This document shows positions 1 to 29,105 of a stretch of 64,000 bases of DNA, piece by piece. Every line of letters starts with the position of its first letter. The first letter of the stretch is position 1. The stretch comes from a virus. The position numbers and the translations under genes were made by a program. The stretch lies in IMG/VR virus record IMGVR_UViG_3300045539_000055, positions 1 through 64,000 of that record; one strand, given 5' to 3'. The notes under the pieces were generated by a model that had not been told where the DNA came from, ran no database searches, and was given only the letters and a program-made list of their open reading frames with translations.

Positions 1-1445
1 ACAACTTGAAGTTTTGATGTCGGAGCACCTGTGGTTCCTATTCCTACATTCCCTGAAGCTGCAATACGCATTTTTTCATCAATAACAGAGGCTGTTCCTC
101 CAATACCTGTTTCAAAAATAATATCAGAACCACCTGAAGCACCTGCTGATGCTCCTTGAAAAGAAGTAGCTTTTATTCTACCTGCAAGATACTTACCACT
201 AAAATTAGAAGAAGCAAATTCTATAGCTCCTAATATTTGCCCTGCTGATGTAGGTTCTGTACTATTACTTAATTGTATAGTAGCACCTGCCAAATCAGCT
301 ATTGCTAAATTAGGAACTGCTCCTCCAAGAATAGTTGCAAGAAAATTAGTAGTTCCTATTCCTACACTGTTTCTAAAATATCCTTTACCATCAAAATAAC
401 CACCCCATCCGTTCCCGGTTTGTGCATCGCCATATACAGCAAAGCCACCCGATGTGAGTACTCTTCCTGCTATTCCGACAGGATTATTAAAAACGGTTTC
501 TGTACTTGTATTATATCCAAACACAGCACAACGACTATCGTAAGAAATCGGACCGGCTAAAGATGCAACAGAGTGTAATTTTGATGTTGGAACAGTTGTT
601 CCTATGCCTACTTTACCTTCTTGGTCAATTCGCATACGTTCAGTAGGAGAGCCACCGGTTTGCTGCGGAGCAGTCATAAACTTTAATATTCCACCACCTC
701 CATTTCCTGAACTTGCAAAAGTTTGTGATACAGCTTCGATAGCTGCGGTAGCATAAGCAACCGATGCATCATCTTTTCCTGAAAATTGTAATCTACCAAG
801 TACAGAACCGGGTGCTATGTTTGTATCAAGATTTCTTAATTCCATAACACCGCCTGTAACATCTGCAACTACAAGTTTTGGTGTAATACCAAAAGTAGGC
901 GTACCGAAAGTATCTGTACCAACTAACACTTGAGTGTTTCCTACAATAAATATTGGAGAGTCAGAAACCGGAGATGTAGTTATTTTTCTAAATTCTAAGA
1001 AGTTACCACTATGGGAATCTTGACTATAAATTTTAACACCTACTGAAGAACCTGAGTCTGAAAACAAATCTGCATAATAACATACATTATCAAGAAGATG
1101 TGCTTGAACATTGACCCCACCAATAGAACCGGGGGTACTTGATGGGTTTTGACCATTTATTTGAATCAATAATGCATCAGGAGAAAATGCAGGTTGTGTT
1201 TGATTTGGCAAATTGATTATTACAGGAGCCAATACACCTGTCGAAGTACCGTAGTCAAATGTTTTTGAACCGGTTATTGTCTGTGCTCCAACAATTGTTA
1301 CAAATTGATTTGTAGTTGTAGCAAGAGTGATGATGTCTGACAAAAGAAAATTCTTTGTCATTAACAAATCACTAATATCTGTTCCAATAACATAGTCCGA
1401 CAACTGCGGAGGTGTTGGTTGTGGGTATGTACTAATCTTTGCCAT
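1..1445 (-). CDS. Tail fibre / receptor-binding protein, C-terminus cut by window edge
   Basis: The reading frame starts at an ATG on the minus strand at 1445 and stays open to base 1, so about 481 residues are visible and the C-terminus is missing. The N-terminus reads MAKISTYP, the same opening as the fibre gene at 61104-63923, which suggests a shared virion-attachment peptide. The body has repeated blocks of the form KVGIGTT-P-SKLH, separated by stretches on 'rank of fit' data such as MRI and FNNPVG segments. Such VGIGTT repeats are common in beta-rich phage fibres and Bacteroidota surface proteins, often followed by a C-terminal S74 chaperone, which cannot be seen here. A role in host attachment is inferred. 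It begins the late minus-strand run that continues into the small structural and lysis genes. Confidence 0.75.
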   Translation of the reverse strand, partial: MAKISTYPQPTPPQLSDYVIGTDISDLLMTKNFLLSDIITLATTTNQFVTIVGAQTITGSKTFDYGTSTGVLAPVIINLPNQTQPAFSPDALLIQINGQNPSSTPGSIGGVNVQAHLLDNVCYYADLFSDSGSSVGVKIYSQDSHSGNFLEFRKITTSPVSDSPIFIVGNTQVLVGTDTFGTPTFGITPKLVVADVTGGVMELRNLDTNIAPGSVLGRLQFSGKDDASVAYATAAIEAVSQTFASSGNGGGGILKFMTAPQQTGGSPTERMRIDQEGKVGIGTTVPTSKLHSVASLAGPISYDSRCAVFGYNTSTETVFNNPVGIAGRVLTSGGFAVYGDAQTGNGWGGYFDGKGYFRNSVGIGTTNFLATILGGAVPNLAIADLAGATIQLSNSTEPTSAGQILGAIEFASSNFSGKYLAGRIKATSFQGASAGASGGSDIIFETGIGGTASVIDEKMRIAASGNVGIGTTGAPTSKLQV

Positions 1446-2849: not shown

Positions 2850-3353
2850 TTATATTTTTGGATAAGTAATTCCATTATCAGTAATAATAATTCCTTTGTC
2901 AACTCTTGCTTTTAGAGTCTTCCAATCGAATCCATAATCGTATTGAAAATGTGGTGGGTCTATAAACTTTTTCCAATCTGCTCCACATTCCCAACCTTTT
3001 GATTTAAAAAAATCAGTTACCTCTTTCCAATCAGCAATAGTGTCTTTGTCAAAATCTCTGATTTGAGAATAACTTGCTTCTTCAAAGGTTCCATTTCCAT
3101 CATTATCATAAAGCAATACAATGTCAAATGCCAACCCATAATTATGAATTGACTGACCTCCTTTTGCATTAGTAACTTTTGGTTTTTGATTATATAACTT
3201 GTCTTGAAGAGCATTGCTTCTAAAAACATAAGCAAATCTTAAACGAGCTCCTTTTCCTAATAGATTATTAGCTTCTCTATAGTCTTTAAGCATTTTATCC
3301 CTAAGTTTGGGATGTGCTTCTTTGATTCTATCGATTGTTATTTTATCCTCCAT
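2850..3353 (-). CDS. M15-family peptidase endolysin
   Basis: A 167-residue zinc peptidase of the M15 (VanY / T5 endolysin) type that would cleave peptide cross-links or stem peptides of the host cell wall. Zinc ligands are visible in SIHNYGLAFD (His70 and Asp77) and DPPHF (His135). The catalytic acid is likely Asp126 in GADWK, in the usual position just before the last His. No signal peptide is present, so release would depend on the holin encoded directly upstream, whose stop overlaps this gene's start (ATG/TAA at 3353). Length matches single-domain phage endolysins and no separate wall-binding domain is seen. Confidence 0.88.
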   Translation of the reverse strand: MEDKITIDRIKEAHPKLRDKMLKDYREANNLLGKGARLRFAYVFRSNALQDKLYNQKPKVTNAKGGQSIHNYGLAFDIVLLYDNDGNGTFEEASYSQIRDFDKDTIADWKEVTDFFKSKGWECGADWKKFIDPPHFQYDYGFDWKTLKARVDKGIIITDNGITYPKI

Positions 3354-8575: not shown

Positions 8576-10172
8576 AAGTACGAGCTAACGTAATTATCGC
8601 ATCAGTACTTAAAATGGTTACAGCTACACTCACTGCATTCTGCAATGCTGAACGTGTTACTTTAAGCGGGTCAATTACTCCCATCTTAATCAAGTCTCCA
8701 AACTCTCTTGTCTTCAAGTTGTAACCTTGACCTTCAGCTATACCATCTTTGTAAATGTCAGATGCCTTCAGTCCTGCATTAGCAAGTATCTGCAAGAACG
8801 GAGCCATAAGTGCACTCTTTAAAATCATAACTGCTGCATTATACTCAGGACTTTTGTCTCCATCAATCTCTAAAGCTGCCGATTCTTCAAGCAAAGCCTT
8901 TCCTGCACCCGGTAGAATCCCTTCCTCAAGTGCGGAACGTACTGCACAAACAGCATCATCAACCCTGTCGAACAACTCTTTTTGCTCCAAATCTGTCTGT
9001 CCACCAACGAAAATTACCCCAATTCCACCTGTTAAAGATGCAATTCTCTCCAAAATAAAGTCCCTATCGTTCTTCTTTGTGGCATTTCTATGGGCATCCC
9101 ACAGCTGATTTACTCTTTCCAAGATAGCATCTTGGTCTAATCTCAAGTCTGACTTGATGATTACGGTCTTATCCTTGCTAACAATCACTTTTGCAGCGTG
9201 CCCAAGGTCTCCAAAGTTGATAATACTTAGGTCATCCCCGGTCTTCTCACTGAAATAAGTAGCCCCAACACTGATAGCGATGTCTTGCATCAGCTCGTGC
9301 TGCTTGTACCCGAAGCTCGGAGGAGGAACTGCACATACTTTGATGTTACCTTTCATCACATTTGCCGCCAAACTATTAATCAAGTTACCTCCACAAGGAG
9401 AAATGATTAGCAACTTCTTACCTTCACTAACAATTGGTTTCAATACGTTCTCAATCTGTAGGATATTTGTAATCTCCATATCAGCAACCAATACCATAGT
9501 GTCTTCAAAGACACACTCGTCTTTCTTTTGGTCGTTCACAAACATAGGACTCAAATAACCCCTGTCGAACTTCAAACCTAATGTGGTCTCAGCATAGGTC
9601 TCATCGTTTTGACTCTTCTCAACTGTAACAATTCCGGTTTTACCCACATCCTTGTACACCTCAGCAATAATCTTCCCAATCTCACGGTCATTGTTCGCTG
9701 ATATACTCGCCACATCTGCCAACATTGTACTCGTAACTCTCTTGCTTCGTCTGCGTAACTTGTCCACCACCTTGTCGCTGATGTCCACCATACTTCTCAA
9801 GACCTCTGTCCGATTCAATTTCTCGTCAATAAGCTCAAGTCCACTAAGAACTAACCCTTCAGTAAGTACAATAGCGGTAGTAGTACCATCTCCTGCTGCG
9901 GTAGCAGTTCTCTCGGCAGCTTCCTTCATCATCTTAACCGCAAGGTTCTCCGATGGGTCCATTAAGTCTATTGATTTAGCAACAGTTACACCATCTTTGG
10001 TTACAGTAATCCCGTGTGTGTGGTTTGGGGATTCAATTAGCACAGGATTTCCTCCCGGACCCAATGTACTTTTCACAGCTTTGGACATTTTCTTAACGCC
10101 ACTAACTAATTTTTTTCTACCTACTTCCCCAAAACATAAATCTTTTGGAGAATAACCTTGATTTTCTAACAT
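8556..10172 (-). CDS. groEL: GroEL-type group I chaperonin
   Basis: A 538-residue protein close to the usual 545. Equatorial ATP-site motifs are present: LGPGGNPV at 37-44 (normally LGPKGRNV), GDGTTTA at 94-100, and RVDDA at 403-407 with Asp406 equivalent to the catalytic Asp398 of E. coli GroEL. The motif usually reading GVVAGGG is GILPGAG here. The apical RGYLSPMFV is retained. The C-terminal GGM tail is absent; the protein ends TYVQAED. It is well diverged from bacterial GroEL, fitting a long phage history. It starts after AATCAAATCAAATG and a promoter box at 10199. The 16-bp palindrome lies inside the gene at codons 220-225. Confidence 0.95.
   Translation of the reverse strand: MLENQGYSPKDLCFGEVGRKKLVSGVKKMSKAVKSTLGPGGNPVLIESPNHTHGITVTKDGVTVAKSIDLMDPSENLAVKMMKEAAERTATAAGDGTTTAIVLTEGLVLSGLELIDEKLNRTEVLRSMVDISDKVVDKLRRRSKRVTSTMLADVASISANNDREIGKIIAEVYKDVGKTGIVTVEKSQNDETYAETTLGLKFDRGYLSPMFVNDQKKDECVFEDTMVLVADMEITNILQIENVLKPIVSEGKKLLIISPCGGNLINSLAANVMKGNIKVCAVPPPSFGYKQHELMQDIAISVGATYFSEKTGDDLSIINFGDLGHAAKVIVSKDKTVIIKSDLRLDQDAILERVNQLWDAHRNATKKNDRDFILERIASLTGGIGVIFVGGQTDLEQKELFDRVDDAVCAVRSALEEGILPGAGKALLEESAALEIDGDKSPEYNAAVMILKSALMAPFLQILANAGLKASDIYKDGIAEGQGYNLKTREFGDLIKMGVIDPLKVTRSALQNAVSVAVTILSTDAIITLARTYVQAED
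9499..9514. repeat. Dispersed 16-bp palindrome, copy in groEL
   Basis: GTGTCTTCAAAGACAC on the plus strand, thus GTGTCTTTGAAGACAC in the sense of groEL, where it encodes the C-V-F-E-D-T segment. The 7-base arms are intact. Confidence 0.9.
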
Positions 10173-11163: not shown

Positions 11164-11179
11164 GTGTCTTTAAAGACAC
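11164..11179. repeat. Dispersed 16-bp palindrome, fully symmetric copy
   Basis: GTGTCTTTAAAGACAC, the only copy that is a perfect palindrome through its centre. It is intergenic, at the right edge of the GC-rich tract. Confidence 0.9.
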
Positions 11180-12078: not shown

Positions 12079-12094
12079 GTGTCTTCAAAGACAC
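12079..12094. repeat. Dispersed 16-bp palindrome after the 11437 gene
   Basis: GTGTCTTCAAAGACAC, 3 nt after a stop codon and 18 nt before the amidoligase start, in the position of an intergenic mRNA hairpin. Confidence 0.9.
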
Positions 12095-12112
12095 TTTAAA
12101 ACCAATTTTTTT

Positions 12113-13033
12113 ATGAGAGCAACAGCATCAACAGGCGTAATTTACACCACTACAGGAGAATCAAGAAGAGGCAATGTTTCAGGCTACCACCAAAAGCCAA
12201 GCCCGAATTTTTTAAACAAAACAGCCCACCGCATCGATGTTGCGGGGCTTAAAGCAATCGAGCAAAGAACCGCCATAAAATTCGATGGTAGAGAGTACGA
12301 GAGCAAATTTACAATCGGTTTTGAGGTTGAAAAAAATCAATTGAGCCGTAACGCTGTGAGAGAGTACGAACTTTTTTGCGGGTTTGAAACCGACTCAAGC
12401 TGTGGCTATGAGGCTGTAACCCATATTTTACCGCTGTTACCTGCGGGGCAATGGCGAACAAAAGTTTACGATATGATGCATAAAGCCGAGAAAATCATCG
12501 ATGACAACTACAGCCCAAGCGATAGAAGATGCGGGGGGCACATTACAATCGGATGCGATGGATTGAATGGCGAAGAGTTAAACGCCTTAGTTCGCAAAAA
12601 TGCGGGCATCGTTTTAGCCCTATTCAGAAGACGATTAAAAAACACCTATTGCGGGGCTAATCGTAGAATGCAACCCGAGACCGACAGCCGATTTAATTCT
12701 ACTGATGGCTATCACTACAGCAACAGCGGATGGCACGGAAAATATCAAACAGCCCTTGTAAAAGGTCATTGTTTAGAGTTTAGAATCCCGAGCAAATTCG
12801 AGAGCGTTAAACAGATGATGAGACGATACGAATTGTTTTACGAGATGGTTAACTACAGCGTGAACAACCCGAGAGGCACACACGAAAAGTTTTTGAAAAG
12901 CATCACGCCAATCATAGTTTCAATGTACAATGGCGACACCGCCAAGGCTGAGGAAATTTTGAAATTTGCGAGACACTTCCAAAAGTTCATCAACAAGGGC
13001 GAAATTCATCAAGACATCGCAATGTACCTTTAG
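12113..13033 (+). CDS. Amidoligase-family enzyme (carboxylate-amine ligase)
   Basis: 306 residues from the ATG at 12113; the TTG-initiated extension would translate the palindrome and is rejected. The motifs fit the amidoligase family related to glutamine synthetase and ATP-grasp ligases: TIGFEVEK at 67-74 (two acidic metal ligands), DSSCGYEAVTHI at 94-105, CGGHITIG at 140-147, and CLEFRIPS at 220-227. These correspond to the family's G-x-E-x-E, D-S-x-x-x-E, G-x-H and E-F-R motifs. Such enzymes form amide bonds using ATP. The island also encodes a glutamine amidotransferase-cyclotransferase fusion, the partner set predicted for this family in published comparative genomics. The substrate is unknown. 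Confidence 0.72.
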   Translation: MRATASTGVIYTTTGESRRGNVSGYHQKPSPNFLNKTAHRIDVAGLKAIEQRTAIKFDGREYESKFTIGFEVEKNQLSRNAVREYELFCGFETDSSCGYEAVTHILPLLPAGQWRTKVYDMMHKAEKIIDDNYSPSDRRCGGHITIGCDGLNGEELNALVRKNAGIVLALFRRRLKNTYCGANRRMQPETDSRFNSTDGYHYSNSGWHGKYQTALVKGHCLEFRIPSKFESVKQMMRRYELFYEMVNYSVNNPRGTHEKFLKSITPIIVSMYNGDTAKAEEILKFARHFQKFINKGEIHQDIAMYL

Positions 13034-13041
13034 CAAGCAAA

Positions 13042-13059
13042 GGAGCGGGAAACCGCTCC
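13042..13059 (+). ncRNA. GAAA-loop hairpin abutting hammerhead ribozyme 1
   Basis: GGAGCGG-GAAA-CCGCTCC forms a 7-bp stem with a GAAA tetraloop, 8 nt after the amidoligase stop and directly before the ribozyme. There is no T run, so it is not a normal terminator. After ribozyme cleavage it would lie 6 nt from the new 3' end. Confidence 0.7.
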
Positions 13060-13110
13060 GCTGTATGCGGATGAGTGTCCGCACTGATGAGCCCAAGAGG
13101 GCGAAACAGC
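13060..13110 (+). ncRNA. Type III hammerhead ribozyme 1
   Basis: All conserved elements are present. Stem III is GCTG (13060-13063) with CAGC (13107-13110), and the cleavage triplet GTA ends at 13065. Stem I is TGCGGA-loop TGAGTG-TCCGCA (13066-13083). CTGATGA (13084-13090) is followed by stem II GCCC-AAGA-GGGC and GAAA (13103-13106). Predicted cleavage is after A13065. The next gene starts 20 nt downstream. Cleavage would separate amidoligase mRNA from the membrane-protein mRNA. Confidence 0.88.
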
Positions 13111-13129
13111 AACCTAAAATTTATGAGTT

Positions 13130-13321
13130 ATGAAATTAGAAATTTGTTTAAAATCGTTTGCCTTAGCGGTAGTTTATTTGTCCTTAGCTGTAGCCCTTAC
13201 AAGCGGGAAAGTTCAGGAGTTGATTAAATTCAATTCAGTTGACAGCGAGATTTTTATGTGTGTCCTTTGCGGGAGTGCGGGCTTGCTTTGTCTAATCGCT
13301 TCAATCAAAGTAAAGCGATGA
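13130..13321 (+). CDS. Small two-helix membrane protein
   Basis: 63 residues with hydrophobic segments at about 6-25 and 42-60, separated by a short polar loop (KVQELIKFNSVDSEIF), and a basic KVKR end. It resembles small early phage membrane proteins, but no family can be named. It lies directly behind hammerhead 1 and before hammerhead 2, so its mRNA may be excised as a separate message. Confidence 0.6.
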   Translation: MKLEICLKSFALAVVYLSLAVALTSGKVQELIKFNSVDSEIFMCVLCGSAGLLCLIASIKVKR

Positions 13322-13353
13322 TAGTGCGAGAGGGTGGCGATTAAATGCGGGGA

Positions 13354-13369
13354 GTGTCTTCAAAGACAC
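13354..13369. repeat. Dispersed 16-bp palindrome abutting hammerhead 2
   Basis: GTGTCTTCAAAGACAC ends exactly one base before ribozyme 2. It takes the place of the GAAA-loop hairpin seen before ribozyme 1. Confidence 0.9.
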
Positions 13370-13418
13370 CCGTACAAGGATGAGTGTCCTTGCTGATGAG
13401 TTCAAAAGAACGAAACGG
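13370..13418 (+). ncRNA. Type III hammerhead ribozyme 2
   Basis: Stem III is CCG/CGG (13370-13372 with 13416-13418). The GTA cleavage triplet ends at 13374. Stem I is CAAGGA-TGAGTG-TCCTTG (13375-13392), with the same TGAGTG loop as ribozyme 1. CTGATGA is at 13393-13399, stem II is GTTC-AAAA-GAAC, and GAAA is at 13412-13415. The next start codon is 24 nt downstream, after a CTAATCTAATCTAATC leader. Confidence 0.88.
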
Positions 13419-13441
13419 AAACCTAATCTAATCTAATCAAG

Positions 13442-13588
13442 ATGAGTAAACAAGACAAGGCGAAAGCCAAAGAACAGCACAGAAGAGCCACAGATTTTTA
13501 TGCGTGGTTGGAAAAAATGGGGAATGTTTATATGGCAGACACCCGCAGAATGGACAGAGCAATTTTAATCGTGATTGAAAATGTGTAG
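13442..13588 (+). CDS. 48-residue basic protein behind hammerhead 2
   Basis: Reads MSKQDKAKAKEQHRRATDFY and continues through a short helix to ILIVIENV. It is basic at the start, with no known domain. It overlaps the next gene by 8 bp (ATGTGTAG), suggesting coupled translation. Confidence 0.55.
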   Translation: MSKQDKAKAKEQHRRATDFYAWLEKMGNVYMADTRRMDRAILIVIENV

Positions 13589-13823
13589 CGTGGAGCAAAT
13601 TCAGGAGGCAATACTTCGGGATGGAGTAGCCTTCATAAATGTGTGGTCGCAAGATTGCGATGGAGTTCAGGCACAATACCACAAAGAGTTTCAATCGGTG
13701 GAGGATTTTTTAGCGTGGGAGGTGGATTTTTACGAGTGGGCAGAGGGTAGCCAAGGCTATAGCCTAACAGACAAAGACAACCTCGATGAGTCGGTTACGT
13801 GGGGTGGATGGGGCGATTACTAA
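13581..13823 (+). CDS. 80-residue acidic protein
   Basis: The ATG at 13581 is chosen over an upstream TTG. The protein is strongly acidic (pI low by inspection) with many aromatic residues: FLAWEVDFYEWAEGSQGY and a VTWGGWGDY end. It has no recognisable family. High negative charge and small size are typical of early host-takeover or DNA-mimic proteins, but that is speculation. It is translationally coupled to the basic gene before it. Confidence 0.55.
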   Translation: MCSVEQIQEAILRDGVAFINVWSQDCDGVQAQYHKEFQSVEDFLAWEVDFYEWAEGSQGYSLTDKDNLDESVTWGGWGDY

Positions 13824-13874
13824 GCCCCGCCAAGCCCCATAAACAAAGGGAAAATGAAAATAAATGAAATTTTA

Positions 13875-13906
13875 TTTGGTAGTGTCGATTACTCGTTCTA
13901 TCTTTG
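13875..13906 (+). promoter_or_regulatory. Early promoter, first copy of a duplicated element
   Basis: TTTG at 13875, a 20-bp spacer, and TATCTTTG at 13899-13906. The sequence AGTGTCGATTACT in the spacer and TCGAA after the box are repeated in the promoter at 15863-15894. The next ATG is 35 bp downstream. Confidence 0.7.
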
Positions 13907-13940
13907 TCGAAATTTAGTTCATTAATCTAATCTAATCACT

Positions 13941-14132
13941 ATGAAAATTATCACAGACCGCAGAGTTTTGAATGCAGTAGCAAAGAAACACGATTTAAGT
14001 TTTTGCCCAAAGTATAAGTATTACGATGGCGATGACTATGACTTGCCTCGAGAGTTTATCTTAAATGGCAGAGTTTACATTTTAAAATATTACGATGGAT
14101 GTTTCAATCCGTTTTTAACTTTAATTAATTAG
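13941..14132 (+). CDS. Small tyrosine-rich protein
   Basis: 63 residues, MKIITDRRVLNAVAKKHDL followed by YKYYDGDDYDLP and a YILKYYDGCF repeat-like block ending LTLIN. Compact alpha/beta layout, no family known. It is the first gene after a strong promoter, and its stop codon overlaps the first base of a palindrome copy. Confidence 0.58.
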   Translation: MKIITDRRVLNAVAKKHDLSFCPKYKYYDGDDYDLPREFILNGRVYILKYYDGCFNPFLTLIN

Positions 14133-14147
14133 TGTCTTCAAAGACAC
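14132..14147. repeat. Dispersed 16-bp palindrome overlapping a stop codon
   Basis: GTGTCTTCAAAGACAC whose first G is the last base of the TAG of the preceding gene. It lies 17 nt before the next start codon. Confidence 0.9.
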
Positions 14148-14163
14148 ACAAAACCAATTTATT

Positions 14164-14721
14164 ATGAGACAAATCACAGAAAGAATTTGCACAGCCTTCG
14201 AGCAACGCAGAACATTAAAAATTGACAACACCGAAACAGATGGCACAAGCCTTTGGTTGTTCGGGAATGAAATTGCCCAATGGCGAGAGGATGGAATTTG
14301 GATAACCGATGCGGGTTGGAAAAGCAAAACCACCAAGGAGCGTTTGAACGGGTTAACGGGAGTCAACATCACGCAGAGAGCGGGCAGTTGGTACATAAAC
14401 GGGAACCTTTGGCAAGGCGAGTGGACAAGCGTGAATGAGAATAACGGAATAACACAGACCCCGCAAGAGGTAGTGCAATTTGACATCACAAGCGAGTGGA
14501 AAGGTAACTACAGCAAGCCAATCTATTCAGTGTATCACACACACACAGAGGCAGAAATTCTACAGATTGAGTTTATGCTAAGTGCTATCGGAATACCTAC
14601 CACAAAAACGTATTCAGATACCGATGGAGAGTACAAGCCTAATCACTTTATCGTTGTGCCCGTAGCAGAGTTTGAGAGAGCAAAACAATTTTTAACCAAA
14701 GTGTCTTTGGAGACACTATAA
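14164..14721 (+). CDS. Two-part conserved phage protein, function unknown
   Basis: 185 residues. The N-terminal 85 have a beta pattern common in small phage proteins: LWLFGNEIAQW, GIWITDAGWKSKTTKERLNGL, WYINGNLWQGEW. The C-terminal part (about 115-180) contains YHTHTEAEILQIEFMLSAIGIP and FIVVPVAEFERAKQFL. These look like an ACT- or ferredoxin-like helix-strand module. The last six codons before TAA carry a variant palindrome. No function can be assigned. Confidence 0.62.
   Translation: MRQITERICTAFEQRRTLKIDNTETDGTSLWLFGNEIAQWREDGIWITDAGWKSKTTKERLNGLTGVNITQRAGSWYINGNLWQGEWTSVNENNGITQTPQEVVQFDITSEWKGNYSKPIYSVYHTHTEAEILQIEFMLSAIGIPTTKTYSDTDGEYKPNHFIVVPVAEFERAKQFLTKVSLETL
14701..14716. repeat. 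Dispersed 16-bp palindrome, variant at gene end
   Basis: GTGTCTTTGGAGACAC (one base off the usual arm, giving a G-T type mismatch). It encodes V-S-L-E-T at the end of the 14164 gene, ending 5 nt before its last base. Confidence 0.8.
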
Positions 14722-14733
14722 AACCTAATCAAA

Positions 14734-14862
14734 ATGAAAAATTCAAAATCGTATGCAGTTTACATTATCTACATTATTCTAATGACATCAATGCTTGTTT
14801 CAAGTTGTGCCTCAAGGTGCAAGCAACAGCGAAGATATTGGAATACACATAGAGCAGTTTAA
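14734..14862 (+). CDS. Small lipoprotein
   Basis: 42 residues: a short N-terminus, a hydrophobic segment (8-23), then the lipobox VSSC with Cys25 and a short basic mature part (ASRCKQQRRYW). Early phage lipoproteins of this size often block superinfection at the outer membrane, while a spanin role is less likely because a u-spanin is encoded in the late operon. This functional reading is inference. Confidence 0.65.
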   Translation: MKNSKSYAVYIIYIILMTSMLVSSCASRCKQQRRYWNTHRAV

Positions 14863-14890
14863 AAATTATTAATCAATAAATCAAATCAAA

Positions 14891-14962
14891 ATGAAAAAAG
14901 TTGTAGCGATATTTTTAATATCAATAGTAATATCATTTATTTTAGCCCCATACCAAGGCTAA
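14891..14962 (+). CDS. 23-residue single-helix membrane peptide
   Basis: MKKVVAIFLISIVISFILAPYQG: two lysines followed by a hydrophobic helix. It is preceded by the leader AAATCAAATCAAA, which is the typical start context here, so translation is plausible despite the size. Function is unknown. Confidence 0.42.
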   Translation: MKKVVAIFLISIVISFILAPYQG

Positions 14963-14973
14963 AAAAGAGGGGA

Positions 14974-14989
14974 GTGTCTTCAAAGACAC
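14974..14989. repeat. Dispersed 16-bp palindrome before hammerhead 3
   Basis: GTGTCTTCAAAGACAC, extended by flanking GA/TC to an 8-bp RNA stem with a TCAA loop. It ends 5 nt before ribozyme 3. Confidence 0.9.
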
Positions 14990-14993
14990 TCTC

Positions 14994-15044
14994 GCTGTCT
15001 CAAGGTAATTGCCTTGACTGACGAGCCTATCAAGGCGAAACAGC
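14994..15044 (+). ncRNA. Type III hammerhead ribozyme 3
   Basis: Stem III is GCTG/CAGC (14994-14997 with 15041-15044). The GTC cleavage triplet ends at 14999. Stem I is TCAAGG-TAATTG-CCTTGA (15000-15017). CTGACGA is at 15018-15024, stem II is GCC-TATCAA-GGC, and GAAA is at 15037-15040. The next ATG is 21 nt after the ribozyme. Confidence 0.88.
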
Positions 15045-15064
15045 AAATTTAAAAACAAAAAAAA

Positions 15065-15442
15065 ATGAGCAATCTAACAAAAGTTGTCGATGGCTTTTTA
15101 TGGCTAATCGTAACGGACAAAGCAAAAGAAATTTTTATCAGCGGGCTATTCGACTTGTACATCCTACACGATGATAGTTCAGAGAGCTTAATCGAAGGCT
15201 TCGGGCAGTTGGTTGAGGCACTTGAAAACGGAATGGACATCGGAATTGAAGGCGGGCATTTGCCTAAGAAGGAGACCCAAGCAGACCTACAGAAAGAGCT
15301 TGTACAGAAGTCAGGCATCAACATCGTAACGTGTGGAGAGTGTGCAGAGGTTATGTTACACAGAGTTACAGACGAGGTTGTAGTTTGTCCTTTTTGCGAG
15401 TTTTCTAACGACCCTTGTCATTTTCCCGACTTATATTATTAA
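15065..15442 (+). CDS. Zinc-ribbon protein
   Basis: 125 residues. An N-terminal helical region (to about 85) is followed by a C-terminal zinc ribbon with CGEC (about 90-93) and CPFC (about 108-111), ending HFPDLYY. Proteins of this size with an N-terminal helical part and C-terminal ribbon are common and unnamed in Bacteroidota phages. A nucleic-acid or protein contact through the ribbon is likely. It follows hammerhead 3 directly. Confidence 0.62.
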   Translation: MSNLTKVVDGFLWLIVTDKAKEIFISGLFDLYILHDDSSESLIEGFGQLVEALENGMDIGIEGGHLPKKETQADLQKELVQKSGINIVTCGECAEVMLHRVTDEVVVCPFCEFSNDPCHFPDLYY

Positions 15443-15460
15443 TCACTAAATCAAATAAAA

Positions 15461-15709
15461 ATGAGCATTATCAAAATCACAAAGCAAGATTGGAAAACGA
15501 TTAACCCGACAAAAACGGGAATTGATAACCAAAAATTAGACAGAGAGTACACTATTTTATTCAACACGAATGAAATGATTACAGCAAAAGAAAGCGAGCA
15601 CGGAGGCACATACATAACCTACAAAAAGGCTATGGTGGATGGAATGACTTGCAAAGAAACATTAGACGAAGTTTACGCCCTTATTTGTGCATCAGATGGA
15701 AGCAACTAA
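15461..15709 (+). CDS. Small mixed alpha/beta protein
   Basis: 82 residues, with IIKITKQDWKTINP opening, a TILFNTNEMITAKESEHGGTY segment and a C-terminal helix. The ATG follows the leader AAATCAAATAAAA. No family is recognised. It overlaps the next start by 14 bp. Confidence 0.55.
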   Translation: MSIIKITKQDWKTINPTKTGIDNQKLDREYTILFNTNEMITAKESEHGGTYITYKKAMVDGMTCKETLDEVYALICASDGSN

Positions 15710-15851
15710 ATCATTCAGCGTGTATTACGATGGAGTGTACGTTCAGAACGTAACAGCCCACAGCGGGTTCGAGGCAATAGACAAAGTTTTCTATTTGTAC
15801 ATAGAGAAACACCCGACCCTCGAAAGAAAAAAATTCAGTACTAAAAAATAA
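15696..15851 (+). CDS. 51-residue small protein
   Basis: Reads MEATKSFSVYYDGVYVQNVT, then a helix FEAIDKVFYLYIEKHP and a basic tail. It overlaps the preceding gene by 14 bp in another frame. Base use is like its neighbours. Function unknown. Confidence 0.5.
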   Translation: MEATKSFSVYYDGVYVQNVTAHSGFEAIDKVFYLYIEKHPTLERKKFSTKK

Positions 15852-15862
15852 TTCAAAATAAA

Positions 15863-15894
15863 TTTGGCAGTGTCGATTACTTGTCGTACCTTTG
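15863..15894 (+). promoter_or_regulatory. Early promoter, second copy of the duplicated element
   Basis: TTTG at 15863, a 20-bp spacer, and TACCTTTG at 15887-15894. It shares AGTGTCGATTACT and TTTGTCGAA with the promoter at 13875. It drives the amidotransferase-cyclotransferase gene. A palindrome copy lies between the promoter and the start codon, in the 5' leader. Confidence 0.7.
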
Positions 15895-15923
15895 TCGAAT
15901 ATTAGTTTATTAATCAGGATTCT

Positions 15924-15939
15924 GTGTCTTCAAAGACAC
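15924..15939. repeat. Dispersed 16-bp palindrome in a 5' leader
   Basis: GTGTCTTCAAAGACAC, 29 nt downstream of a promoter -7 box and 22 nt before the ATG at 15962. It is the only copy located in the operator/leader position just behind a promoter. Confidence 0.9.
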
Positions 15940-15961
15940 TATCCGCAAATCAAATCAAATT

Positions 15962-17092
15962 ATGTGTGTTATCATTATCAAACAAAAAGGTTATCAAGTG
16001 TCTCAGGAAATTGCAAAAACATCCGCAAGGATTAACCCTCACGGATTGGGGATTGTGTGGCTCGATACTTTTGATGTTACTTACCACAAGTCAGCAGAAT
16101 ACAAATTGCTTGACACAGACCGCCCATTTATTGCTCATTTTAGATACGCTACTGTTGGGGCTATAGGCAGACAAAACACCCACCCATTTCAGTGTGGCAA
16201 TAACAAAAACGAGTACCTAATGATGAATGGTACAATCAAGGGGCTTGGCAATATGAAGCAAAGCGATTCAAAGGTATTAGCCGACAAACTTGGAGGCATA
16301 CCTCGACCACAATGGAAGTCAGAGTTGGCTCAATACGATTGCCGATTCACTACGATTAACGTGCAAAACAAATCGTTTCAGATATACAACCGAGAGGATT
16401 GGATTCAGAAAGATGGCGTTTGGTACAGCAAGGAGAATGTACTTGAAGATAACTATGTTGCAGTGTATGGTACACTAAAGAAAGGTTACTCAAACTATTG
16501 GCACTACCTATCAGGAACTAACTTTGTAGGCAGTGGAACGACCACAGACAAATACCCGCTTGTAGTTAGCGGATTGCCTTACCTCATCGAAGATAAAGGT
16601 TTAGGGCACAATGTGGATGTAGATGTGTTTAGAGTTACGGATTCAAAGATAAAGAGTTTAGACCAATTAGAGGGGCATCCGAGATGGTATTGCAGAAAGC
16701 AAATCAATATCACAATCAAGGGAAAGCAAGTCCTTTGTTGGATTTACTTTAACCTCAAGGAAGTTGCAGATAACAAAGTGTTTCACAAGTCCTACGTTCA
16801 GGCTAAGCCAAAATTTCAGACCTTTGGTAATTACGGAACAAGTCCATACCGCTATGTTAAAAGTTCATACCCAAAAAGATATGATACCATACCCGCTAAG
16901 GCACAGCCTCAGAAAAAAATGTTTCAGGATTGGTTCTCCGATGTGGATGATACACCCGAGTTTGATGTGCAGAATGAGACACCTATGTGTGTTGCTTGCT
17001 ACAATGACTTAGTGTTTGATGGGTTCAATAATTACCATTGCAGTAGCTGTAACACGTGGCACTCAGAGGCAGATGTATTGAGAAAGTTTTAG
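15962..17092 (+). CDS. Class II glutamine amidotransferase / gamma-glutamylcyclotransferase fusion with zinc ribbon
   Basis: 376 residues in three parts. Residues 2-150 form a class II glutamine amidotransferase (Ntn hydrolase): nucleophile Cys2 after Met1, HFRYATVG at 59-66, a MNGT turn at 88-91 and SDSK at 101-104. Residues 165-285 form a gamma-glutamylcyclotransferase-like domain: VYGTLKKGYSNYWHYL with the substrate loop YGTL at 169-172 and a catalytic-type Glu237 in LDQLEGHP. Residues 343-363 are a zinc ribbon (CVAC and CSSC). The first domain releases ammonia from glutamine, and the second opens gamma-glutamyl bonds. With the amidoligase upstream this suggests a system that attaches and trims an amide-linked group. 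Confidence 0.82.
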   Translation: MCVIIIKQKGYQVSQEIAKTSARINPHGLGIVWLDTFDVTYHKSAEYKLLDTDRPFIAHFRYATVGAIGRQNTHPFQCGNNKNEYLMMNGTIKGLGNMKQSDSKVLADKLGGIPRPQWKSELAQYDCRFTTINVQNKSFQIYNREDWIQKDGVWYSKENVLEDNYVAVYGTLKKGYSNYWHYLSGTNFVGSGTTTDKYPLVVSGLPYLIEDKGLGHNVDVDVFRVTDSKIKSLDQLEGHPRWYCRKQINITIKGKQVLCWIYFNLKEVADNKVFHKSYVQAKPKFQTFGNYGTSPYRYVKSSYPKRYDTIPAKAQPQKKMFQDWFSDVDDTPEFDVQNETPMCVACYNDLVFDGFNNYHCSSCNTWHSEADVLRKF

Positions 17093-17103
17093 TACCTTAG
17101 GGA

Positions 17104-17119
17104 GTGTCTTCAAAGACAC
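17104..17119. repeat. Dispersed 16-bp palindrome before hammerhead 4
   Basis: GTGTCTTCAAAGACAC with flanking GA/TC, 12 nt after the amidotransferase stop and 6 nt before ribozyme 4. Confidence 0.9.
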
Positions 17120-17124
17120 TCTCT

Positions 17125-17173
17125 CCGTATCGAGATAGTTGTCTCGACTGACGATTCCAAAAGGATGAAACGG
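17125..17173 (+). ncRNA. Type III hammerhead ribozyme 4
   Basis: Stem III is CCG/CGG (17125-17127 with 17171-17173). The GTA cleavage triplet ends at 17129. Stem I is TCGAGA-TAGTTG-TCTCGA (17130-17147). CTGACGA is at 17148-17154 and GAAA at 17167-17170. Stem II is TTCC-AAAA-GGAT, three pairs plus a T-T mismatch at its base, so this copy may be slower than the others. The next ATG is 20 nt on. Confidence 0.85.
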
Positions 17174-17192
17174 AAACTAAAATCTAAAGATT

Positions 17193-17486
17193 ATGAAAAT
17201 CTATTTAAAATTTGACCACAACGAAGACGATTCCCTTAAAGCGATTGGTTGTGAACACAATGGGAAAGAAGTTAGTGAAAGAGTTTTTGATGTTATCAAG
17301 TGGTACAGCGATGATGATAGTTTGAGTAGAGCGAGTCATTTGTCGGAGTTGATTCACAAAACACTTGACTACGAGGAAATTTTATTCCTTGCCACTAAGT
17401 CCGTAGAGAATAAGATGGAGCAAATGATGTTTGAAAGAATGAAGGACAGACTAAGAGAAGATTTAAGAGACTTTTTAAACGAATAA
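17193..17486 (+). CDS. 97-residue acidic helical protein
   Basis: Opens MKIYLKFDHNEDDSLKAIG, with a helical C-terminal half (MEQMMFERMKDRLREDL). No membrane segment and no family recognised. It follows hammerhead 4 and is 3 bp before the next gene. Confidence 0.58.
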   Translation: MKIYLKFDHNEDDSLKAIGCEHNGKEVSERVFDVIKWYSDDDSLSRASHLSELIHKTLDYEEILFLATKSVENKMEQMMFERMKDRLREDLRDFLNE

Positions 17487-28610: not shown

Positions 28611-29105
28611 ATGCAATCAAAACAAGAAGAAATAGACGAACTCAAGAAAATAGTTAACGATGTTTTTTTAGTTGACATAGATATTAAAAACAGCAAAAGA
28701 GGAGTAGTTGATGCTCGTAAAGTTTACTCTAAAATTCTAAGAGATAGCGGATATAACTATGAGTTGATAGGAGAAACAATAAGCAAAGACCACGCTACTA
28801 TAATTCACTATGTAAAAAACATAGAATATTTATTGTCTTACGACAAAGGATTAAGAGATAAATATGTTGCTTGTAAAAATGTGTTTGTTAAAAAAAAGAA
28901 GTCTATTTCAGACCAAGTAAAAAAAGATGTAGATATATATGTTACCGTAGTGAGATTAACAAATGAACTTCAAGAAGCTGTAGCAATTAAAGAAAAACTT
29001 TTAGATGAGTTTTTTGATTATATTGAAGACTATGAAAAAAGAACAGGTCATTTGCCAAATTCTCACGAATGCAAACATCATATACTACCATTGTTTAACA
29101 CATAA
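28611..29105 (+). CDS. Second DnaA domain IV-like protein
   Basis: 164 residues. The N-terminal 85 resemble DnaA domain IV, with KRGVVDARKVYSKILRD, YELIGETISKDHATIIHYVKN, matching the D-H-x-T-I/V-I-H signature better than the 20100 protein. The C-terminal half is a long charged helix that may dimerise, ending in CKHHILPLF. Two stand-alone domain IV proteins in one phage suggest a division between origin binding and regulation. Confidence 0.75.
   Translation: MQSKQEEIDELKKIVNDVFLVDIDIKNSKRGVVDARKVYSKILRDSGYNYELIGETISKDHATIIHYVKNIEYLLSYDKGLRDKYVACKNVFVKKKKSISDQVKKDVDIYVTVVRLTNELQEAVAIKEKLLDEFFDYIEDYEKRTGHLPNSHECKHHILPLFNT

Follow-up and report, generated by a model that had tools for sequence, protein, structure and literature searches.

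A hairpin-coupled type III hammerhead ribozyme cassette at early gene boundaries in a clade of podoviruses

The analysis of a 64,000-base stretch of viral DNA (64,000 of the 64,175 bases of IMG/VR record IMGVR_UViG_3300045539_000055, here called the window) revealed four type III hammerhead ribozymes arranged in series within the early region of a phage. The gene content of the window is podovirus-like, with terminase, portal, GroEL, Sak-like annealing protein, exonuclease VIII and primase-helicase; the annealing protein, exonuclease and primase genes are located downstream of the series. All four hammerheads are in the sense direction and each lies just ahead of a small gene. An earlier reading of the same DNA (the original prediction) had described this arrangement, and it was confirmed by the cores, the stems and matches to the Rfam model RF00008 (Hammerhead_3).

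Sequence inspection showed that all four copies are complete, with the core C3-U4-G5-A6-N7-G8-A9, G12-A13-A14-A15.1, U16.1-H17 present in each and stem III forming the open end. Folding, together with covariation over 45 copies, gave three helices per copy, with loops closing stems I and II. The window contains four exact occurrences of the core CTGANGA-N12-GAAA. A strict structural finder produced four matches in the window and none in 40 random 64-kb windows modelled on it; this and the covariation rule out chance matches. Three stems had been predicted for every copy and were found, but two copies are less regular. Stem II of copy 4 opens with a U-U mismatch at pair 10.1/11.1, which is G-C in copies 1-3. 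Copy 2 has only 3 bp plus U-A in stem III, and in folding a longer form of the upstream hairpin competes with this short stem. The predicted limits of copies 1 and 3 were retained, and those of copies 2 and 4 are now 13369-13419 and 17124-17174. The ATGs start 18-23 nt beyond stem III, close to the 20-24 nt given before. Membership of the hammerhead class implies that the window copies should self-cleave at U-H.

All copies aligned with RF00008 over its full length, sharing its core and its open stem III, at 34.1 to 45.1 bits (E-values 8.4e-8 to 1.1e-4). None of the four reached the curated gathering cut-off of 48.5 bits, so a default Rfam scan gives no report for them. The original prediction had proposed to judge the copies by this threshold, and formally all fall below it; E-values, covariation and context, however, indicate that the cut-off is too strict for this subclass. 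When 39 related records were searched with RF00008, 34 gave matches at E ≤0.01, again all below 48.5 bits. Among 14 control genomes only Methanosarcina gave a match at this E-value, so the matches in the relatives are not background. The cut-off conceals a large natural group of hammerheads.

A pattern derived from the copies retrieved 92 IMG/VR stretches, and a pattern with an added hairpin retrieved 66, many of them new. Together they yielded 178 distinct hammerheads of the window design, of which 45 were used to build a covariance model, R1. With R1 the window copies score 59.6-73.6 bits, partly by construction, as they belong to the training set. Across 45 divergent copies the partners pair in 96.3% of cells, compared with 36-49% when they are slid, and two-sided changes were counted in 228 pair cells versus 63 in shuffles. 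A close relative (G020) has all four hammerheads at matching places with compensatory changes, for example in stem I of copy 2 and in the hairpin of copy 1. Such pairing and compensatory change indicate selection for structure. The claim that two stem I loop classes imply amplification did not survive this comparison. At the copy 4 site, which is followed by a clearly orthologous gene, the window and record L032 share the loop TAGTTG whereas G020 has TGAGTG, so loop class is no mark of lineage; amplification marked by loop class is rejected at this one clean orthologous site.

Table 1. Features of the hammerhead series and its surroundings in the window (aa, amino acids; ORF, open reading frame)
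Feature	Coordinates	Strand	Evidence and remarks
Palindromic hairpin without hammerhead	12079..12094	+	15 nt ahead of ATG; others at 11164, 14132, 14701, 15924, 22153
Hairpin adjoining hammerhead 1, GGAGCGGGAAACCGCTCC	13042..13059	+	Folds alone; G020 ortholog is GGGGCGGGAAACCGCCCC, compensatory A-T to G-C
Hammerhead ribozyme 1, type III	13060..13110	+	Predicted cleavage after 13065 (GUA); RF00008 45.1 bits, E 8.4e-8; R1 73.1 bits
Small gene, 63 aa, behind hammerhead 1	13130..13321	+	ORF; 76% identity to G020 gene at same place
Hairpin adjoining hammerhead 2, AGTGTCTTCAAAGACAC	13353..13369	+	Folding, repeat and ortholog comparison
Hammerhead ribozyme 2, type III	13369..13419	+	Predicted cleavage after 13374 (GUA); RF00008 34.1 bits; R1 73.6 bits; compensatory stem I changes in G020
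Small gene, 48 aa, behind hammerhead 2	13442..13588	+	ORF; 90% identity in G020
Bacteroidota-type promoter-like site TTTG-N20-TATCTTTG, between hammerheads 2 and 3	13875..13906	+	Pattern match; repeated at 15863 (repeat family D5)
Hairpin adjoining hammerhead 3, around GTGTCTTCAAAGACAC	14970..14993	+	Repeat search, folding
Hammerhead ribozyme 3, type III	14994..15044	+	Predicted cleavage after 14999 (GUC); RF00008 45.1 bits; R1 59.6 bits
Gene, 125 aa, behind hammerhead 3	15065..15442	+	ORF
Bacteroidota-type promoter-like site, between hammerheads 3 and 4	15863..15894	+	Pattern match
Hairpin adjoining hammerhead 4, around GTGTCTTCAAAGACAC	17100..17123	+	Repeat search, folding
Hammerhead ribozyme 4, type III	17124..17174	+	Predicted cleavage after 17129 (GUA); RF00008 34.2 bits; R1 65.1 bits; same site in L032, G020
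Gene, 97 aa, behind hammerhead 4	17193..17486	+	ORF; 70% identity in G020 behind same hammerhead

Each hammerhead is part of a cassette with the order stop codon, RNA hairpin, hammerhead, G-poor leader, ATG. An ATG is found 15-30 nt downstream in 79% of the 178 copies versus 10% at random sites, and the leader behind the ribozyme (median 22 nt) consists of 53% A and 2% G. The 32 nt upstream of the ribozyme have a mean folding energy of -13.1 kcal/mol against -5.5 kcal/mol for shuffled sequence; 78% of these stretches reach -9 kcal/mol, whereas at junctions without a hammerhead the best stretch does so in 39%. The hairpin directly adjoins the ribozyme in 131 of the 158 copies situated behind a co-directional gene and in only 4 of 16 without such a gene (p=3e-6); some of the 27 hairpin-less copies are undercounted, since the hairpin extends into stem III, as happens in window copy 2. 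Among the clues to function, the dependence of the hairpin on a preceding gene is the strongest, and it points to protection of a new mRNA 3′ end.

A palindrome of the GTGTCTTCAAAGACAC type occupies the hairpin region of 96 of 175 copies, and most of the others have unrelated or diverged sequence that still folds. In palindromes adjoining hammerheads the loop of the sense strand reads CA in 71 cases and TG in 2. A DNA operator would need no such strand bias, so the palindrome beside hammerheads probably acts as RNA. The bias and the substitution by unrelated hairpins make a plain DNA operator less likely at these places, though they do not account for the intragenic copies. An intrinsic terminator was rejected because no U-run follows the hairpin.

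Most of the 178 copies belong to a single clade of podoviruses with genomes of ~60 kb, of which the cultured Elemoviruses of Flavobacterium are distant relatives, and by sequence comparison dozens of related viruses share the predicted cassette. In 46 records selected for having hammerheads, R1 found 1-5 copies per record (about 110 in total), with at least four copies in ten records; in multi-copy records the copies are mostly clustered within a few kilobases. In a sample selected by terminase, hammerheads were detected in 5 of 7 records of at least 50 kb and in none of 18 shorter ones, which may lack the early region. Nearly every other record with hammerheads encodes a terminase sharing 73-95% identity with that of the window. 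A blastn search of phages with a hybrid cassette query, composed from window and family consensus letters, gave no informative match. This loop design was also seen in type III hammerheads of 29 of 32 cellular contigs (L097-L128), largely of Patescibacteria; contigs L098, L100, L110 and L112 contain two or three each.

The 178 copies also revealed a coupling within the core, between position 17 and pair 10.1/11.1, that to our knowledge is absent from the hammerhead consensus. With C17 (92 copies) the pair is G-C in 89, A-A in 3 and U-U in none. With A17 it is U-U in 43 of 76, and all ten U17 copies have A-A or U-U; overall, U-U is present in about a quarter of the family. When an earlier set was reduced to one copy per downstream protein, the counts were 0 of 53 versus 38 of 61 (p=1.5e-14). 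After removal of similar sequences this remained the strongest coupling among non-helix columns, at 0.59 bits versus at most 0.17 when shuffled. In cellular copies U17 often occurs with G-C, so the rule is partly clade-specific. The coupling may reflect either a tuned speed of cleavage or a structural need. U10.1-U11.1 mismatches have already been noted in active hammerheads and reported as the best tolerated (PMC3088659), and no description of their coupling with position 17 was found in the literature. The present data add a statistical coupling within an RNA active site that is among the best studied.

From the observed sequence, structure, covariation, placement, hairpin association and spread of the cassette we infer cleavage in the cell, protection of RNA ends and an effect on expression. 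With a probability of roughly 65%, we propose that constitutive self-cleaving type III hammerheads within a hairpin cassette cut early phage mRNA at gene boundaries. RNA polymerase would read through, and the hammerhead would cut the boundary constitutively. The upstream mRNA would then end a few bases past a stable hairpin, carrying a 2′,3′-cyclic phosphate and shielded by the hairpin from 3′ exonucleases. The downstream mRNA would start with a 5′-OH and the hairpin of stem I, behind which an open leader rich in A would suit ribosomes not using a Shine-Dalgarno sequence. Messages would probably be cut into separate pieces by the RNA itself and not by an enzyme; cassette RNA would replace the usual terminators, extra promoters and RNases, and small early genes would gain mRNA ends of their own. 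In E. coli, repetitive extragenic palindromic (REP) elements are intergenic hairpins that stabilise mRNA 3′ ends and protect the upstream cistron from 3′ exonucleases. Cutting there is by RNases, whereas here it is proposed to be by the ribozyme beside the hairpin. Clustered hammerheads of this kind do cleave in vitro and in E. coli (PMC3088659). The original prediction went further, to a single early transcript cut into at least five mRNAs. This is not required: promoter-like matches are present inside the series at 13875 and 15863, so the series need not be one transcript. We extend the proposal tentatively to the whole clade, where a cassette of 3′-protecting hairpin, hammerhead and Shine-Dalgarno-less leader might be the standard way of making early-gene mRNA ends, with cleavage speed possibly set by two core states, one combining C17 with a G-C pair at 10.1/11.1 and the other having A17 or U17, frequently together with U-U or A-A.

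Several observations weigh against cleavage at gene boundaries. RNAfold favours other structures for copies 1 and 2 in a wider context, although it cannot credit loop-loop contacts; the strong conservation of the loops (TGAGTG with AAAA) is consistent with, but does not prove, a tertiary contact between loops I and II. The U-U mismatch of copy 4 is expected to reduce activity. Clade members MW202828 (terminase 78% identical to that of the window), G053 and G063 are without the cassette; in G063 a distant homolog of the 97-aa gene has no hammerhead in front. Finally, the palindrome also occurs away from hammerheads and within genes (e.g. at 9498 and 34731) and so must have a further role.

The constant distance to the ATG could also mean that the hammerheads serve the downstream gene, with cleavage of the 5′ leader acting as an inbuilt switch of decay or start that tunes or delays expression, and with the hairpin ahead of the ribozyme as a mere insulator against interference by flanking RNA. 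Operon-first copies without an upstream gene exist, so 3′-end formation cannot be the sole role; a haloviral hammerhead 13 nt ahead of a helicase gene has been proposed as regulatory (PMC3088659), and the combinations of A17 or U17 with mismatches suggest tuned speeds. An insulator, however, should be equally common in operon-first copies, and it is not (4 of 16 versus 131 of 158). Further, there is no extra sensing domain, and cleavage leaves the entire leader and start codon on the downstream RNA. We regard service to the downstream gene as rather unlikely to be the explanation. It is less probable still that the units are remnants or passengers of gene-swapping modules, which cleave with little selected function for the phage. 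They do have hypervariable small early genes as neighbours (copy 3 is followed by a different gene in each of the window, L074 and G020), their presence across the clade is patchy, and 133 copies have downstream proteins of 114 clusters. Against this, compensatory change at orthologous sites and near-perfect pairing in 178 copies show structural selection, and the hairpin depends on upstream context. Viroid-like excision of segments between hammerhead pairs and their ligation into circles, such as the 309-nt piece separating copies 1 and 2, is very improbable, since spacing varies from about 0.3 to 3 kb, single-copy phages are common, and Perreault et al. looked for circles or spliced RNAs produced by such arrays without finding any (PMC3088659), even though the cleaved ends (5′-OH and 2′,3′-cyclic phosphate) are ligatable.

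A series of hammerheads is not in itself new, contrary to what had been supposed. Perreault et al. described in 2011 several hammerheads flanking single genes or short gene blocks in prophages, with in vitro cleavage of three clusters and cleavage of one in E. coli, and proposed processing of long phage RNA (PMC3088659). The window likewise has several hammerheads flanking genes in one phage operon. It differs in the use of one architecture (type III, 6-bp stem I, TGAGTG-like loop, 4-bp stem II) across a podovirus clade, in the coupling to an upstream hairpin, in the fixed start-codon distance and in the coupling of position 17 with 10.1/11.1. The HHphage hammerhead of haloviruses HF1 and HF2 also precedes an early gene at close range (13 nt), but is a single copy of different architecture in an archaeal virus (PMC3088659). 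The searched main text of the 2011 paper has no mention of Bacteroidetes, and no reports of hammerheads in Bacteroidota phages were found in a literature search that had most subscription journals outside its reach. The cassette and its clade-wide spread appear to be new, in a type III, hairpin-coupled form which default Rfam scans miss.

The Elemoviruses (Flavobacterium phages vB_FspP_elemoA-F; MT497078 and others) share GroEL, annealing protein, exonuclease and primase genes with the window. They have one hammerhead, 14 nt ahead of the first early gene, within a 201-base region for which 68 genomes show at least 99% identity; in MT497078 it occupies 28914-28966 on the minus strand. Unlike in the window, it is a single operon-first copy without the palindrome. 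The window terminase is 48% identical to that of phage elemoE 10-3D, and the comparison places the window phage as a deeper relative of Elemovirus-like podoviruses, not in the same genus. The function of bacterial and phage hammerheads has been open since their discovery, and this clade makes the question directly testable: it offers a comparative set of 178 copies, a rule for hairpin context, patchy presence among relatives as natural controls, and cultured relatives with a related hammerhead (Elemovirus on Flavobacterium sp. BAL314).

In addition to the terminase relationships, promoter-like sites resembling those of Bacteroidota (TTTG...TANNTTTG) and the low G content of the leaders (2%) point to a Bacteroidota host; the virus is aquatic and its hosts are probably Flavobacterium-like bacteria. 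A cultured host could not be assigned through the closest relative, as MW202828, the nearest genome with annotation, is likewise of environmental origin and has no hammerheads. No integrase was seen among the window proteins scanned, which cover part of the genes of this 64-kb virus contig.

Operon-first copies have a promoter-like site, then a leader of 100-200 nt, then the hammerhead. Examples are L006 (~2850-3020), L038 (~860-1010, minus strand), L059 (~1980-2130) and L130 (28966-29120, minus strand). The motif GGGTGTGgttACTCtG is common to these leaders across distant phages including Elemovirus, and no known Rfam RNA was detected at gathering threshold in the loci scanned. The leader is possibly a small RNA released by the hammerhead.

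The 16-bp near-perfect palindrome GTGTCTT(CA/TA/TG)AAGACAC has about 13 copies in the window, also inside groEL and structural genes. It is found beside hammerheads at 13354, 14974 and 17104, and elsewhere at 9498, 11164, 12079, 14132, 14701, 15924, 22153, 26540, 34731 and 59247. A total of 335 occurrences were counted in 125 stretches from related phages, compared with about 0.004 expected per Mb, and MW202828 has GTGTCGTTAACGACAC 14 times, largely at gene junctions. It looks like a fast-evolving genome-wide recognition element.

Copy 1 is preceded by a conserved early protein of 307 aa (12110-13033) with homologs in G020 and MW202828. It gave no match in Pfam or PDB sequence searches and, by eye only, resembles an amidoligase. 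The window region 15962-17092 contains a fusion gene, whose product joins a gamma-glutamyl cyclotransferase domain to an N-terminal part resembling class II glutamine amidotransferases.

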